Shown: positions 13,551 through 20,253 of the stretch, in pieces
Layout: the number at the start of each line of letters is the position of its first letter
Position numbering within the stretch: the first letter of the stretch is position 1
Source: Oscillospiraceae bacterium
GTDB lineage: Bacteria > Bacillota > Clostridia > Oscillospirales > Oscillospiraceae
DNA: 64,000 bases
Assembly (NCBI GenBank): GCA_015067995.1
Contig: SVLJ01000002.1
Coordinates: forward strand, 124,001 to 188,000
Direction: 5' to 3'
Notes under the pieces: generated by a model
The model's input: the letters and a program-made list of their open reading frames with translations, nothing else
Told to the model about the DNA's origin: nothing
The model's database searches: none
Position numbers and translations under genes: made by a program

Positions 13551-14273
13551 TTACAGACCACGATCCTTCAGTGTCTGGTAGACACGCATATCGGCCCGGC
13601 AGATGGTCATGGGGGTGATGGATATGTACCCGTGGAGAGCGGCGTCGGTATCCAGCGTATCGTCGTTGCTGTCCACCCAGACGGACTTGCCCCGGGGACG
13701 GTACAGATCATTTCCCACAGGAAAGAAGTCGTCGGAATAGTAGGGGCCGCCCTGGAGGGTGATCCGGATATCCCTGGGATCGGCGGGGATGTTGACGTTG
13801 TACAGATCGTTCAGCGCCAGCAGGTCATACTGCCGGATAAAGGCAAAGACTTCGTCCAGATGCGCCGTGGCGTTGTGATAGTATTCCGGCGGCGTGGACA
13901 GTGCGATGGCCTGAACACCGAGATTGACGGCTTCGCAGGCTGCGCCTACCGTGCCGGAATACATGGTGTCACTGCCTAAATTCAGACCGCGGTTGACTCC
14001 GGAGATCACCAGATCAAAGGAGAGCCTCAGACCAAGGATGGCGAAGCGGACGCAGTCGGCAGGCGTGGAGTCCACCGTCCAGACGGTGAAGCCCGGTTCC
14101 AGCTCCACCTGTTTTGCCTCGAAGGCGCGATGGAGCTCAATGCCGTGGCTTTTGCCGCTCTGTTCAAATTTCGGTACAACTGCGGTTACTTCGCCGAGGC
14201 AGCGGCACCAGCGGATCAGCGGCAGCAGCTGCTCGGCATTTACGCCGTCATCATTTACGATAAGGATTCTCAT
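13551..14273 (-). CDS. surE: 5'/3'-nucleotidase SurE
   Basis: 240 residues. It starts MRILIVNDDGVNAEQ with the metal-binding Asp8-Asp9 pair. SGVNRGLNLGSDTMYSGTVGAA near 90-111 supplies further metal and substrate residues of the SurE fold. It removes phosphate from nucleoside monophosphates. The start overlaps the stop of the upstream DHH phosphoesterase by 4 nt, so it is the last gene of a three-gene operon for short oligonucleotide and nucleotide breakdown. Confidence 0.95.
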   Translation of the reverse strand: MRILIVNDDGVNAEQLLPLIRWCRCLGEVTAVVPKFEQSGKSHGIELHRAFEAKQVELEPGFTVWTVDSTPADCVRFAILGLRLSFDLVISGVNRGLNLGSDTMYSGTVGAACEAVNLGVQAIALSTPPEYYHNATAHLDEVFAFIRQYDLLALNDLYNVNIPADPRDIRITLQGGPYYSDDFFPVGNDLYRPRGKSVWVDSNDDTLDTDAALHGYISITPMTICRADMRVYQTLKDRGL

Positions 14274-15259
14274 AGCCAGCCCTCGTTGTTTTCCTTATAG
14301 TTCTTCACGTGGGCGTCGGCGTCCCGCAGCAGGGCGTCAATTTCCTCGCGGCCGTAGAGAGTGGCGCCGCTGGCGGAGGCATGGCCGCCGCCGCGGTATT
14401 TCTCCGCAATGCTGTTGATGTGGACAAAGCGGGAGCGCAGACGCACCCGAATGGTGTTTTGCTCGTCGCCGGTTTCGATGAAGGCGATCCAGCAGATGCA
14501 GCCACGGATGGAGTCCAGATTGCCGATGACGGCGCTGGCCTGTTCCAGAGAGAGACCGAATTCCTTCTGCATGTCACAATCCACAAAAATGTAGGCAACG
14601 CCGTTTTCCGTGATCTGCATTTTCTGATAGATGTGAGCCTTGAATTTCAGATACTCAAAGGCTTCCAGATACAGCCGGGCATACAGCGTCTCGGTGTCCA
14701 CACCCACATCCAGCAGGATGGCGGCATGACGCAGGGTGTCGCCATCCACATCACTGTAGCGGAAGCGGCCGGTGTCTGTTACCATGCCGGTATAGAGATA
14801 GGTGGCGGCCTCGGAGTCGATTTTCAGCTGATCACGGAAAGCACTGTAAAACTTCACCACCATCTCACAGGCGGAGGATTTCTCCTCCTCCACCCAAATA
14901 TAGCTGCCGTAGTTTTCCAGCGGGATATGGTGATCGATCTTCACCAGTTCTTTGCAGAGGGTATACTTCTTGTTGGAAATGCGGCTTTCCGAAGCGGTAT
15001 CCAGCACGATGCCCAGAGCGTCGGCGTACAGATCGTCTGCAACGGGCTCGTCCTCAGGCCCCATAAAGTCCAGATACTTTGCCAGATCCTCATCGATGAG
15101 GTAAACTTCCTTTTCCGGCCATGTCAGCTGGATGATGCGTTTGAGGCCCTTGGTAGCGCCCACGCAGTCACCGTCGTTGCGGATATGGCGGAAGAGCATG
15201 ATGCGGTCATACTCCTTGATCTTTTCCAGAATGGTGGTCATGATCTCTAAATTTTTCAT
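14270..15259 (-). CDS. DHH-family phosphoesterase (NrnA-like), paralogue 2
   Basis: 329 residues. DHH-DHHA1 layout: RHIRNDGDCVGATKG near 22 (motif I), LDTASESRI near 88, KIDHHIPLENYG near 110 (DHH) and GGGHASASGATL near 292 (DHHA1). NrnA-type enzymes degrade nano-RNA and pAp, and some cleave pApA from c-di-AMP. It overlaps surE and the upstream paralogue by 4 nt each. Motif I has Asp-Cys-Val where DAxG is usual, so it may differ in activity from its neighbour. Confidence 0.88.
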   Translation of the reverse strand: MKNLEIMTTILEKIKEYDRIMLFRHIRNDGDCVGATKGLKRIIQLTWPEKEVYLIDEDLAKYLDFMGPEDEPVADDLYADALGIVLDTASESRISNKKYTLCKELVKIDHHIPLENYGSYIWVEEEKSSACEMVVKFYSAFRDQLKIDSEAATYLYTGMVTDTGRFRYSDVDGDTLRHAAILLDVGVDTETLYARLYLEAFEYLKFKAHIYQKMQITENGVAYIFVDCDMQKEFGLSLEQASAVIGNLDSIRGCICWIAFIETGDEQNTIRVRLRSRFVHINSIAEKYRGGGHASASGATLYGREEIDALLRDADAHVKNYKENNEGWL

Positions 15260-16197
15260 AATGCTTCTCCTATGAGTTCATCCAGATCCTTCAGCATACC
15301 GGCAACGGCTTCCCGGTCGGTAAGTGTAGCACCGCAGGCCTTGGCGTGACCGCCGCCGCCGTATTTCACGGCGATGGGATTAACATTCAGCCCGGCAGAG
15401 CGCAGTTCGCACAGAATGCCTTCATCGGTTTCGGTGAAATTCACCCAGATCTCCACGCCCTTCAGGTCGGCCATGGTGTTGACCATGCCCCGGGAGGCGG
15501 TGAAGGTATCCAGTCCCAGCTGATCCAGCTCTTCCTTCGTGGTGTAGATATACGCTACATTGCGGGGGGTGAACTGCGCTTTCAAAACAAACTGTGCCCG
15601 CAGCTGCTTGCTTTCGATGGTCTCCGCGTAGAGGTTGCGGAAGATTTGCTCCGTGGAAAAATCCTGTTCCCGCAGGAAAGCGGCCAGCCGGAAAGTACGG
15701 GCGGAGGTGGCGTCGTAGCGGAAACGGCCGGAATCGGTGACAAGGCCGGTATAGAGTGCGCGGGCTGCATCGTTATTCAGCCGCAGACCGCACTCCATGG
15801 CAAACTGCGTAATCAGGCCGCAGCAGCTTTCGTAGCTGTCATCGGTGATTTCGAGGTCTGTAAATTTCCCCTGATAAATGTGGTGGTCAAAGCGTACGGT
15901 GACGGCAGCCGTTTTCCATCGCTCATCGCTGATGAGCAGTGGGGAGGAAATGTCCAGCACAATGGCCAGAGCGTTTTGATACGTACTGTCCGGGATGCTG
16001 TCCATCACAGAACCCTCCATAAAGCTCAGATACCCGGCGTCGTCGCCCACGGTATAGACAGTTTTTCCCGGGAAGTTTTCCAGAAGCAGATGCTTCAGGC
16101 CGATCTGACTGCCCAGCGCATCGCCGTCGGGGCGGGTATGACGGTGAATGATAATGGTGTTGTATTCCCTGATTTTTTGCAGTATGGTTTGAAACAT
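15256..16197 (-). CDS. DHH-family phosphoesterase (NrnA-like), paralogue 1
   Basis: 313 residues, first gene of the operon, with AAAGGGG upstream of ATG 16197. Motifs RHTRPDGDALGSQIG near 19, LDISS near 84, FDHHIYQGKF near 103 and GGGGHAKACGATL near 280 are all canonical. Likely nanoRNase/pAp phosphatase. The tandem arrangement with a second DHH protein and SurE suggests stepwise oligonucleotide to nucleotide to nucleoside degradation. Which paralogue is true NrnA is not decided by sequence, though this one keeps the classic DGDALGS motif. Confidence 0.9.
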   Translation of the reverse strand: MFQTILQKIREYNTIIIHRHTRPDGDALGSQIGLKHLLLENFPGKTVYTVGDDAGYLSFMEGSVMDSIPDSTYQNALAIVLDISSPLLISDERWKTAAVTVRFDHHIYQGKFTDLEITDDSYESCCGLITQFAMECGLRLNNDAARALYTGLVTDSGRFRYDATSARTFRLAAFLREQDFSTEQIFRNLYAETIESKQLRAQFVLKAQFTPRNVAYIYTTKEELDQLGLDTFTASRGMVNTMADLKGVEIWVNFTETDEGILCELRSAGLNVNPIAVKYGGGGHAKACGATLTDREAVAGMLKDLDELIGEAL

Positions 16198-19071: not shown

Positions 19072-19079
19072 GCAGGATT
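19072..19079. repeat. Target-site duplication, left copy
   Basis: GCAGGATT immediately outside the left inverted repeat, identical to 20246-20253. Confidence 0.9.
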
Positions 19080-19104
19080 TGATATAGTTGAAAATTATCT
19101 TGAT
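19080..19104 (+). repeat. Left terminal inverted repeat of cassette
   Basis: 25 bp, beginning TGATATAGTTG and ending ATCTTGAT. It matches the reverse complement of 20221-20245 at all 25 positions; identity stops exactly at both borders. Confidence 0.95.
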
Positions 19105-19144
19105 GGTCAAGAGCCTTGTTATAACAACCTATTCTGATGTAGAA

Positions 19145-19176
19145 ACTCCTGCTCCGTTGCAGAGCAGGAGTTTTAT
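19145..19176. terminator. Terminator inside cassette, after hydrolase gene
   Basis: Stem ACTCCTGCTC / GAGCAGGAGT with 7-nt loop. Plus-strand side is followed by TTTATTT; the minus-strand side by TTTCT. It would stop hydrolase transcription before it leaves the element. Confidence 0.75.
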
Positions 19177-19202
19177 TTAGCAATTCAACAAATTGGAATT
19201 TA

Positions 19203-19946
19203 TCAGTCTTCAATTATCTCTCGAATTTTATTTGCATAGTCTTTTCCTTGGTTTATGGAAAACTCACCATGGTACAACCCGGGAAGGATTTGCAATATGC
19301 TCTCTTGCAATGCTTGATGAATGACTTTGGCGGACTTTTGCATTGCGTTCTTTTCTTTTCCTCCGACAAATACATAAACCTTTGCGGTACACTTCTTTAT
19401 AGATTCCTTTAAGGAATATAACGAATTTGCCTGCAAAAAGGCAATCATATCTTTCTTGGATATGGCACAAGTATCTTTAAAATAATGGTCAAATAAATCG
19501 GATTTAATTTTAAGCGACTTGAATTGCAGTTTAGAAAACCAGTTGTACTGTATTAATCCATAACAAGTTCCAAATGCAGGCGCAATCATAGAATGCGTTA
19601 GTTTTGAGGGTATAACCAACGCACTTTCAATAATGGCATAATTACAAATATCGTTGCGTTGTGACAAAATCTCCAGTAAAATCTGTCCACCTAAAGATAA
19701 ACCACCAATTAGAAAAACAGAGCCTCCCAAATGTGTATCAATAAAGGTGATGATTTCAGCAGCATTATCTGCTATGGTTGTAAAAGGTTTATCACTTTCT
19801 GCGTGGCCATCCAATATTGGCAGGATTATATGATAATCATCTTGAAGAGAGTTTGCTACTTCTTCATAATTCCACCATGACAAACCGCCTCCGTGCAAAA
19901 GAAGAATTATGTTGTCGTTTTCTTTTCCGTATTCAACATAACGCAA
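19203..19946 (-). CDS. Alpha/beta hydrolase, passenger gene of cassette
   Basis: 247 residues, start TTG 19946 behind AGGTGA; no in-frame ATG is near. Oxyanion motif HGGG at 18-21, nucleophile elbow GGLSLGG with Ser84, and a plausible catalytic His226 in GLYHGEFS. DGHAESD near 46-52 is typical of the family. Codon use is AT-rich (aaa, tta, att), quite unlike every neighbour, which points to horizontal acquisition. Substrate is unknown; hydrolases of this type act on esters, lactones or peptides, and some detoxify antibiotics or signals. It has its own promoter and terminator within the element. Confidence 0.85.
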   Translation of the reverse strand: MRYVEYGKENDNIILLLHGGGLSWWNYEEVANSLQDDYHIILPILDGHAESDKPFTTIADNAAEIITFIDTHLGGSVFLIGGLSLGGQILLEILSQRNDICNYAIIESALVIPSKLTHSMIAPAFGTCYGLIQYNWFSKLQFKSLKIKSDLFDHYFKDTCAISKKDMIAFLQANSLYSLKESIKKCTAKVYVFVGGKEKNAMQKSAKVIHQALQESILQILPGLYHGEFSINQGKDYANKIREIIED

Positions 19947-20077
19947 TCTCTTTCACCTCGCTTACAAATTCTTATTTGTCTAAGTGTTTAATTCATTTCT
20001 AAATAAAAATAGTTCTAATTGTCCAGTTTATTCTTATATCTGTGCAAAAACTATCGAATATTCCAAATCACACCTGA

Positions 20078-20119
20078 ATTATAGCATATCTTTGCTCGTT
20101 TGTCTCATTCCAAGAATGA
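20078..20119 (-). promoter_or_regulatory. Promoter and possible operator of passenger hydrolase
   Basis: Minus strand: GAGACA (20101-20106), 17-nt spacer, TATAAT (20078-20083). A perfect dyad TCATTC-CAA-GAATGA (20105-20119) touches the -35 box and could bind a regulator. The leader to the TTG is about 125 nt. Confidence 0.6.
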
Positions 20120-20220
20120 AATTTACAGTTTAGAGTGGCTGGTGTGATATATCCTCAACAAAAACACATTTTATCTTTTTTGAACTTTAAAACTGTGCAG
20201 GATTACAAAACGAAACCCCA

Positions 20221-20245
20221 ATCAAGATAATTTTCAACTATATCA
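20221..20245 (-). repeat. Right terminal inverted repeat of cassette
   Basis: 25 bp, perfect inverted copy of 19080-19104. The gap 19947-20315 otherwise holds the hydrolase promoter, a third GCAGGATT (20197-20204) and the ridA terminator. Confidence 0.95.
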
Positions 20246-20253
20246 GCAGGATT
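20246..20253. repeat. Target-site duplication, right copy
   Basis: GCAGGATT immediately outside the right inverted repeat. Confidence 0.9.

Follow-up and report, generated by a model that had tools for sequence, protein, structure and literature searches.

The window, i.e., a stretch of 64,000 nucleotides from an Oscillospiraceae bacterium (assembly GCA_015067995.1, contig SVLJ01000002.1, positions 124,001 to 188,000), holds what are probably two nested mobile layers: a transposase-free outer element and, inside it, an expression platform with an exchangeable promoterless cassette. The outer element, delimited by 25-bp inverted repeats and an 8-bp target duplication, would presumably be moved in trans by a transposase not seen here; as a platform it would supply promoter, recombination site and terminator to a promoterless cassette of a single gene. 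The cassette, probably circular, would enter by site-specific recombination of the platform site AAATAAG|AATTTG with its own site AAATTCC|AATTTG. The crossover is placed somewhere inside the shared AATTTG; an exchange within this hexamer would leave the platform spacer at the left junction and the cassette spacer at the right one, matching what attI-cassette-attC gives in integrons. The inserted gene would be read from the carrier promoter. Boundaries, one gene in different carriers, different genes at one site and arrays were established by comparison of sequences, almost all of them from MAGs and uncultivated viral contigs.

The perfect 25-bp inverted repeats described in the first-pass annotation were confirmed (25/25 bp; L end, 19080..19104, plus strand; R end, 20221..20245, minus strand), as was the 8-bp direct repeat GCAGGATT on each side (19072..19079, left, and 20246..20253, right; no strand), assigned as the target duplication of the outer element. 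When up to 3 mismatches were allowed, the arm was found in 2 copies in the window vs 0/100 shuffles, and these are its only two places in the own genome (G000; 2,307,910 bases, 40 contigs, 91.62% complete). The element lies wholly inside a contig of 208,637 bases. It is AT-rich, as had been stated (GC 34.3% for 19080-20245 vs 55.6% for the window), and the hydrolase gene stands alone in it, with no transposase; the other open reading frames inside are short and overlapping. Three copies of GCAGGATT had been claimed; 19072-20253 has four, including internal ones at 19820-19827 and 20197-20204. The window contains 9 copies vs 3.35 expected, a number reached by 1/100 shuffles. In related right ends the copy at 20197 is replaced by GCAGAATT, and it is therefore taken as chance; the suggestion that it may be a trace of an earlier event was dropped, and the internal copies in general were taken as chance.

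Of the expression signals proposed for the gene, a TATAAT box (20078..20083, minus strand, read by eye, ca. 100 bp before the platform site) and a terminator-like hairpin behind the cassette (19143..19173) are present; both lie outside the hydrolase boundaries and belong to the carrier, so that the promoter and terminator are not the gene's own. TATAAT is present in the R end of SIG489 as well, and a similar hairpin is found there in the same place. The putative "operator", palindrome TCATTCCAAGAATGA (20105..20119, by eye), has related, non-identical versions in the R ends of RGIG7195 and SIG544; none was seen by eye in the R end of SIG489. Elsewhere in the window, two adjacent open reading frames of 329 and 313 aa (14270-16197, minus strand), DHH-type phosphoesterase-like by eye, form a possible tandem duplication.

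The repeats, whose confinement to this one place would have spoken against a mobile element, do occur elsewhere: the 25-mer is present in five other MAGs (SIG489, SIG544, SIG652, SIG660 and RGIG7195), where, as predicted, the same ends go with different passengers. In 300 sampled genomes of the family (own included) the arm was found, exact, in one other genome (G207). Search with the outer 20-mer gave 10 loci in genome contigs; seven were assigned to the element family because sequence past the 20-mer is also common to them, namely L007 and L012 (SIG489), L011 and L014 (SIG544), L009 (SIG652), L013 (SIG660) and L015 (RGIG7195, matching G207). L008, L010 and L016, with no match past the 20-mer, were dropped as chance. 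The order-level search added four 3-mismatch arm matches (L024, L026 and L027 among those listed) beside the exact ones. The L end consists of the repeat, then a GGTCAGC-like stretch and CCTTG; in the R end, the repeat is followed by a stretch containing CTGCACAGTTTT.

The 8 bases outside the L end in SIG489, GACAAAGT, are the reverse complement of those outside its R end; the corresponding 8-mers in SIG544 are TTTGTATA and TATACAAA. Judged by sequence, GACAAAGT (SIG489) and TATACAAA (SIG544) are 8-bp duplications, each read across two contigs. The content is the hydrolase in the window vs a kinase in SIG489; the R ends of SIG544 and RGIG7195 carry genes whose starts we take to be sigma-factor-like, and an inward open reading frame beginning MDRYRELS occurs at the L ends of SIG544, SIG652 and SIG660, cut off after ca. 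8 residues. The contigs of the relatives all stop 126-467 bp inside the element, as would be expected for a sequence repeated in its metagenome. Since the same ends occur with other genes, in two cases with 8-bp duplications, the reading of the first-pass annotation as a mobile insertion cassette, i.e., transposase-free with inverted repeats and an 8-bp duplication, is taken as right for the outer layer; it does not extend to the hydrolase, which is itself a separately exchanged unit.

The insertion sequence with matching ends that had been expected was not found: among the own genome and samples of 300 genomes of the family and 394 of the order, none showed a transposase-bearing element with such ends. 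The own genome is 91.62% complete in 40 contigs, and therefore its unassembled part may hold the partner element. Comparison of the whole element with 60 relatives recovered the own copy, 278 bp at 68% in G033 and 34 bp in G011, and no second element; a distant blastn search of plasmids and phages gave no match. The 20-mer of the repeat was absent from viral contigs and the ends of the related elements from plasmids; two weak end matches in one Synechococcus phage were taken as chance. An empty-site allele, likewise anticipated, did not appear: the left-flank gene is present in 57/61 genomes of the genus (own included), ridA adjoins it in 0/29 non-self loci, and the flank differs past the insertion point, so that these loci speak neither for nor against the insertion.

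The inner layer is a single-gene cassette of 776 bp (19195..19970, minus strand), running from AATTTG to AAATTCC and delimited by homology breakpoints. It carries the alpha/beta hydrolase gene (19203..19946, minus strand; 247 aa, TTG start as listed; PF00561, 1.6e-12). In front of the gene lies the attI-like platform site AAATAAG|AATTTG (19965..19977, minus strand) and directly behind its stop the attC-like cassette-end site AAATTCC|AATTTG (19189..19201, minus strand), with the hairpin ca. 20 bp further on. Comparison shows the hydrolase to be a unit exchanged on its own between sites that mark its boundaries, the promoter and terminator being the carrier's. Homologs were found in 11/391 genomes of the class (match at 1e-60, own included) and 13/400 of the family (match at 1e-90, own included). 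The closest, L040 and L041, were aligned over 783 and 791 bp (87.5% and 87.7%) in unrelated surroundings; their homology to the window extends from GAATTTG to AAATTCCAATTTG or a variant of it, or up to 8 bp beyond. The sites of the L030 hydrolase (70%) are related yet different, and no clear site was seen by eye at L042, L043 or most of the more distant homologs. A protein search of viral contigs gave no relatives of the hydrolase. The protein database holds 7,234 of them; among the clusters listed, the longest contig is shorter than 3 kb in 98/120 (a count made without control). A detoxifying function, as had been suggested for the enzyme, was not borne out, every NCBIfam match being far below cut-off. 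At L031, L032 and L033 (G828, G927 and G993), hydrolase homologs (57-58%) near contig ends are flanked on either side by AAATTACAA-like repeats, which may mark a second boundary system related to this one.

Kinase, HEAT-like, VOC and GNAT genes are bounded in the same way as the hydrolase, in differing surroundings. For the SIG489 kinase, 21/300 family genomes match (own included); the best match, 92% over 75 residues, is a copy at G000:C2 in the window's own genome; the same sites bound it on either side, and its neighbours are a kinase-like cassette in inverted orientation and a HEAT-like gene represented by its 3' end. The HEAT-like gene was found further at G000:C14, G000:C29, G064:C15 and G064:C32. 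G000:C2 (kinase) and G000:C29 (HEAT-like) agree in every one of the 70 bases that precede the site, and L041 (hydrolase) and L092 (kinase) have a common flank behind the site and different genes. The units are single genes without promoter, some in arrays with a promoter before the first unit (exceptions with promoters of their own: L211 and G111:C26); by eye, several platforms have a TATAAT-like box ahead of the site and a hairpin following the unit. Passengers with Pfam matches comprise the hydrolase, an AAA_18 kinase, a dNK-like kinase, DUF169, HEAT_2 (below cut-off), a Lactamase_B fold, Glyoxalase_2, HTH_3 with zinc ribbon, GNAT and a methyltransferase; membrane proteins also occur, and the lipoprotein of L211 has no Pfam match. 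Behind the site of the MBL-fold cassette of L153 (G111:C29), the sequence resembles, by eye, part of an IS1595-type transposase gene. Searches for an empty platform of the predicted form AAATAAC|AATTTG gave one unconvincing match in 30 genomes and seven unconvincing viral matches; L131, once considered as such, was withdrawn as the end of an array, and neither a circular cassette form nor an empty platform was identified.

Searches for the boundary sites were made in the same 30 genomes; these were selected with known carriers included, and the counts are therefore no measure of prevalence. AAATTCCAATTTG, searched exactly, gave 17 matches in 7 genomes vs 2 for the backwards pattern; in 10/17 the stop codon of an open reading frame of ca. 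60 aa or more is at most 10 bp away, and one (G125) is a site before a hydrolase, on the other strand. AAATAASAATTTG gave 12 matches in 4 genomes vs 1 for the control; 11/12 are AAATAAG, with a gene start within ca. 35 bp in 10 of these 11. Alignment of loci judged cassette-bearing gave a consensus of approximately GAYAAATAAG|AATTTG for 21 distinct left sites, chosen on this basis from 66 distinct left-site contexts, and RAYAAATTCC|AATTTGTCGA for 32 distinct right sites; site length is ca. 13-16 bp. The units start some 10-35 bp ahead of the start codon, and in 10/17 places their end follows the stop immediately. The distinction between left and right types is not strict: AAATAAG can close a unit too, as at G064:C15, and the units with their own promoters in L211 and G111:C26 begin at AAATTCC|AATTTG.

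Breakpoints were read from 14 aligned pairs of the same gene, 12 with the 3' side and 9 with the 5' side on both members. On the 3' side the alignment ends in the site or up to ca. 9 bp beyond in 12/12 pairs; on the 5' side it starts at the site or within ca. 10 bp in 5/9, continues into similar promoter sequence in 3/9 (kinase L091/L247, kinase L091/L012 and HEAT L121/L143) and starts inside the gene in 1/9 (GNAT L238/L270). The GNAT gene of L270 (MT838768.1, ca. 630-1110), 78% identical to the phage cassette gene, has changed ends: TCGGAAGTTG in front and CGACTTCC|TGTTTGTC behind. By eye, the departures from the usual site seem to go hand in hand at the two ends, as they might if both were recognised as a pair.

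In viral contigs the 16-mer GAYAAATAAGAATTTG gave 67 loci, most of which look like chance; 7/67 have a right site (≤1 mismatch) within 2.6 kb. L238 and L211 represent the same locus behind a peptide deformylase gene (PF01327), occupied by one GNAT unit in L238 and by a lipoprotein unit and an HTH unit in L211; with L193 and L245, which have other contents behind the same deformylase end, four phage contigs show four contents. L268 has the right flank of L238/L211 with yet another gene before it. The kinase of L247 has 93% protein identity to the copy in the window's genome. Its platform (L247, 1387-2187) lies between two similar terminator hairpins; in the relatives L274, L275, L278 and L304 a single hairpin stands there and the platform is missing.

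Serine recombinases matched at 6/7 viral loci with paired sites vs 4/60 unpaired left-site loci (Fisher 1.4e-5), and the four unpaired ones look like cassettes cut by contig ends. The domains are Resolvase, Recombinase and Zn_ribbon_recom; the best NCBIfam model for the second recombinase is CcrB (1e-34, far below cut-off), and as the CcrA, CcrB and CcrC models all match far below their cut-offs, the proteins are not assigned to Ccr. In the reverse test, the best 80 of 552 second-recombinase loci had a site with 0-1 mismatch at 5 and with up to 2 at 9; 4 of these 5 lie on contigs that the site searches had already turned up. No such recombinase was found in the bacterial cassette regions L141-L160. 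Search with PF00589 gave 37 tyrosine recombinases in 7 carrier genomes, with no clear candidate and none shown to be IntI. One of them, common to G000 and G064, was set aside, as it resembles the integrase of a larger element: in L167 (G000:C20) and L187 (G064:C20) it is 85.6% identical across two genera and has the same two kinds of neighbour genes, beside what is presumably a conserved chromosomal gene; it is probably the integrase of a shared integrated element. Neither the cassette recombinase nor the transposase of the outer element was identified in the material analysed; we infer the enzyme, as we do the circle, the crossover point and the movement of the outer element in trans.

The mobile insertion cassettes (MICs) of the Bacillus cereus group have inverted repeats, a target duplication, a passenger gene and no transposase. 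The window element resembles them in all four respects and differs in that no partner IS was found, in its 8-bp duplication, in its ends TGATATAG and in a passenger that is itself exchangeable. An ordinary MIC, in which homologous or illegitimate recombination occasionally replaces the passenger and the inner motifs are leader and trailer, would by its outer element alone account for what was first observed, and the 3/9 alignments passing the 5' site into promoter-like sequence agree with it; it is nevertheless unlikely, since the unrelated hydrolase, kinase, HEAT-like, VOC and GNAT genes have the same sites, also far from any outer element, the hydrolases L040/L041 and kinases L091/L247 stand in carriers without the 25-bp repeat, and no further exact or 3-mismatch repeat was found in G000 and none in the sequences shown for other carriers. 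That the whole is an artefact of MAG assembly or binning is highly improbable: the records are indeed mostly MAGs or uncultivated viral contigs, and the contigs of the other outer elements break off inside them, but the window element is complete within its long contig and the same units and ends recur in separate assemblies and viral contigs (for the kinase, in G000, SIG489, G111 and L247). In Xer-driven dif modules, gene units are bounded by short inverted sites and the enzyme acts in trans. The present units are like them in this arrangement; site sequence and spacer seem unlike those of known dif sites.

The tandem Ccr-like serine recombinases beside the phage arrays might drive cassette exchange, in cis within phages and in trans on chromosomes. 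Their association with paired sites, their domains and the CcrB model as best match point this way, and as tandem large serine pairs with CcrB, CcrC and CcrA matches below cut-off they recall the SCC system (CcrA/CcrB); SCC differs in that it forms large islands vs one-gene units here, and here the recombinase lies outside the unit and the link of enzyme and site is putative. We consider this assignment doubtful. The reverse test recovered few sites, the siteless relatives (L274, L275, L278 and L304) are without the whole platform, the bacterial regions L141-L160 have no such recombinase, and the site types differ at the palindrome centre, a misfit with a simple 2-bp overlap there; moreover, phage integrase genes are common on such contigs, and the comparison group was unmatched for habitat. 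Less probable still is a true integron with an IntI-type integrase, divergent attC sites and clusters without integrase. The logic is the same: promoterless single-gene units, arrays, a promoter before the first unit, and a platform-type left and cassette-type right junction, in the order attI-unit-attC; phages with integron sites have also been described (PMC9892861). The crossover core of integrons given there is G|TTRRRY; the present sites are ca. 13-16 bp long with AATTTG in its stead, all 21 left and 32 right sites having G|AATTTG or C|AATTTG and none the core in this form. With units that begin so close to the start codon and, in 10/17 places, end right after the stop, there would seem to be no room for a long folded site at the 5' end. 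No integrase gene was found beside the chromosomal platforms read here, and the platforms occur in many places, one of them inside a transposon-like element.

The preferred reading remains that of two nested layers, and a wider one is put forward tentatively, at slightly less than an even chance: a gene-capture system of gut-type Clostridia and their phages, separate from integrons, with very short palindromic sites, scattered platforms (one transposon-like), a common pool of single-gene cassettes (hydrolase, kinases, GNAT, VOC, MBL-fold and membrane proteins) and a recombinase acting in trans. No description of such an exchange system was found in the open-licence literature searched (preprints excluded); it may be described elsewhere. 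The sites are short and exact, and the idea is therefore directly testable. The textbook means of capturing and expressing single genes in bacteria is the integron, which is generally rare in Clostridia. If true, the system would be a new channel of gene flow, with a second pool of single-gene cassettes that has other sites and is common to gut-type Clostridia and phages, and this pool may explain the 7,234 relatives of the hydrolase, many of them on short contigs.
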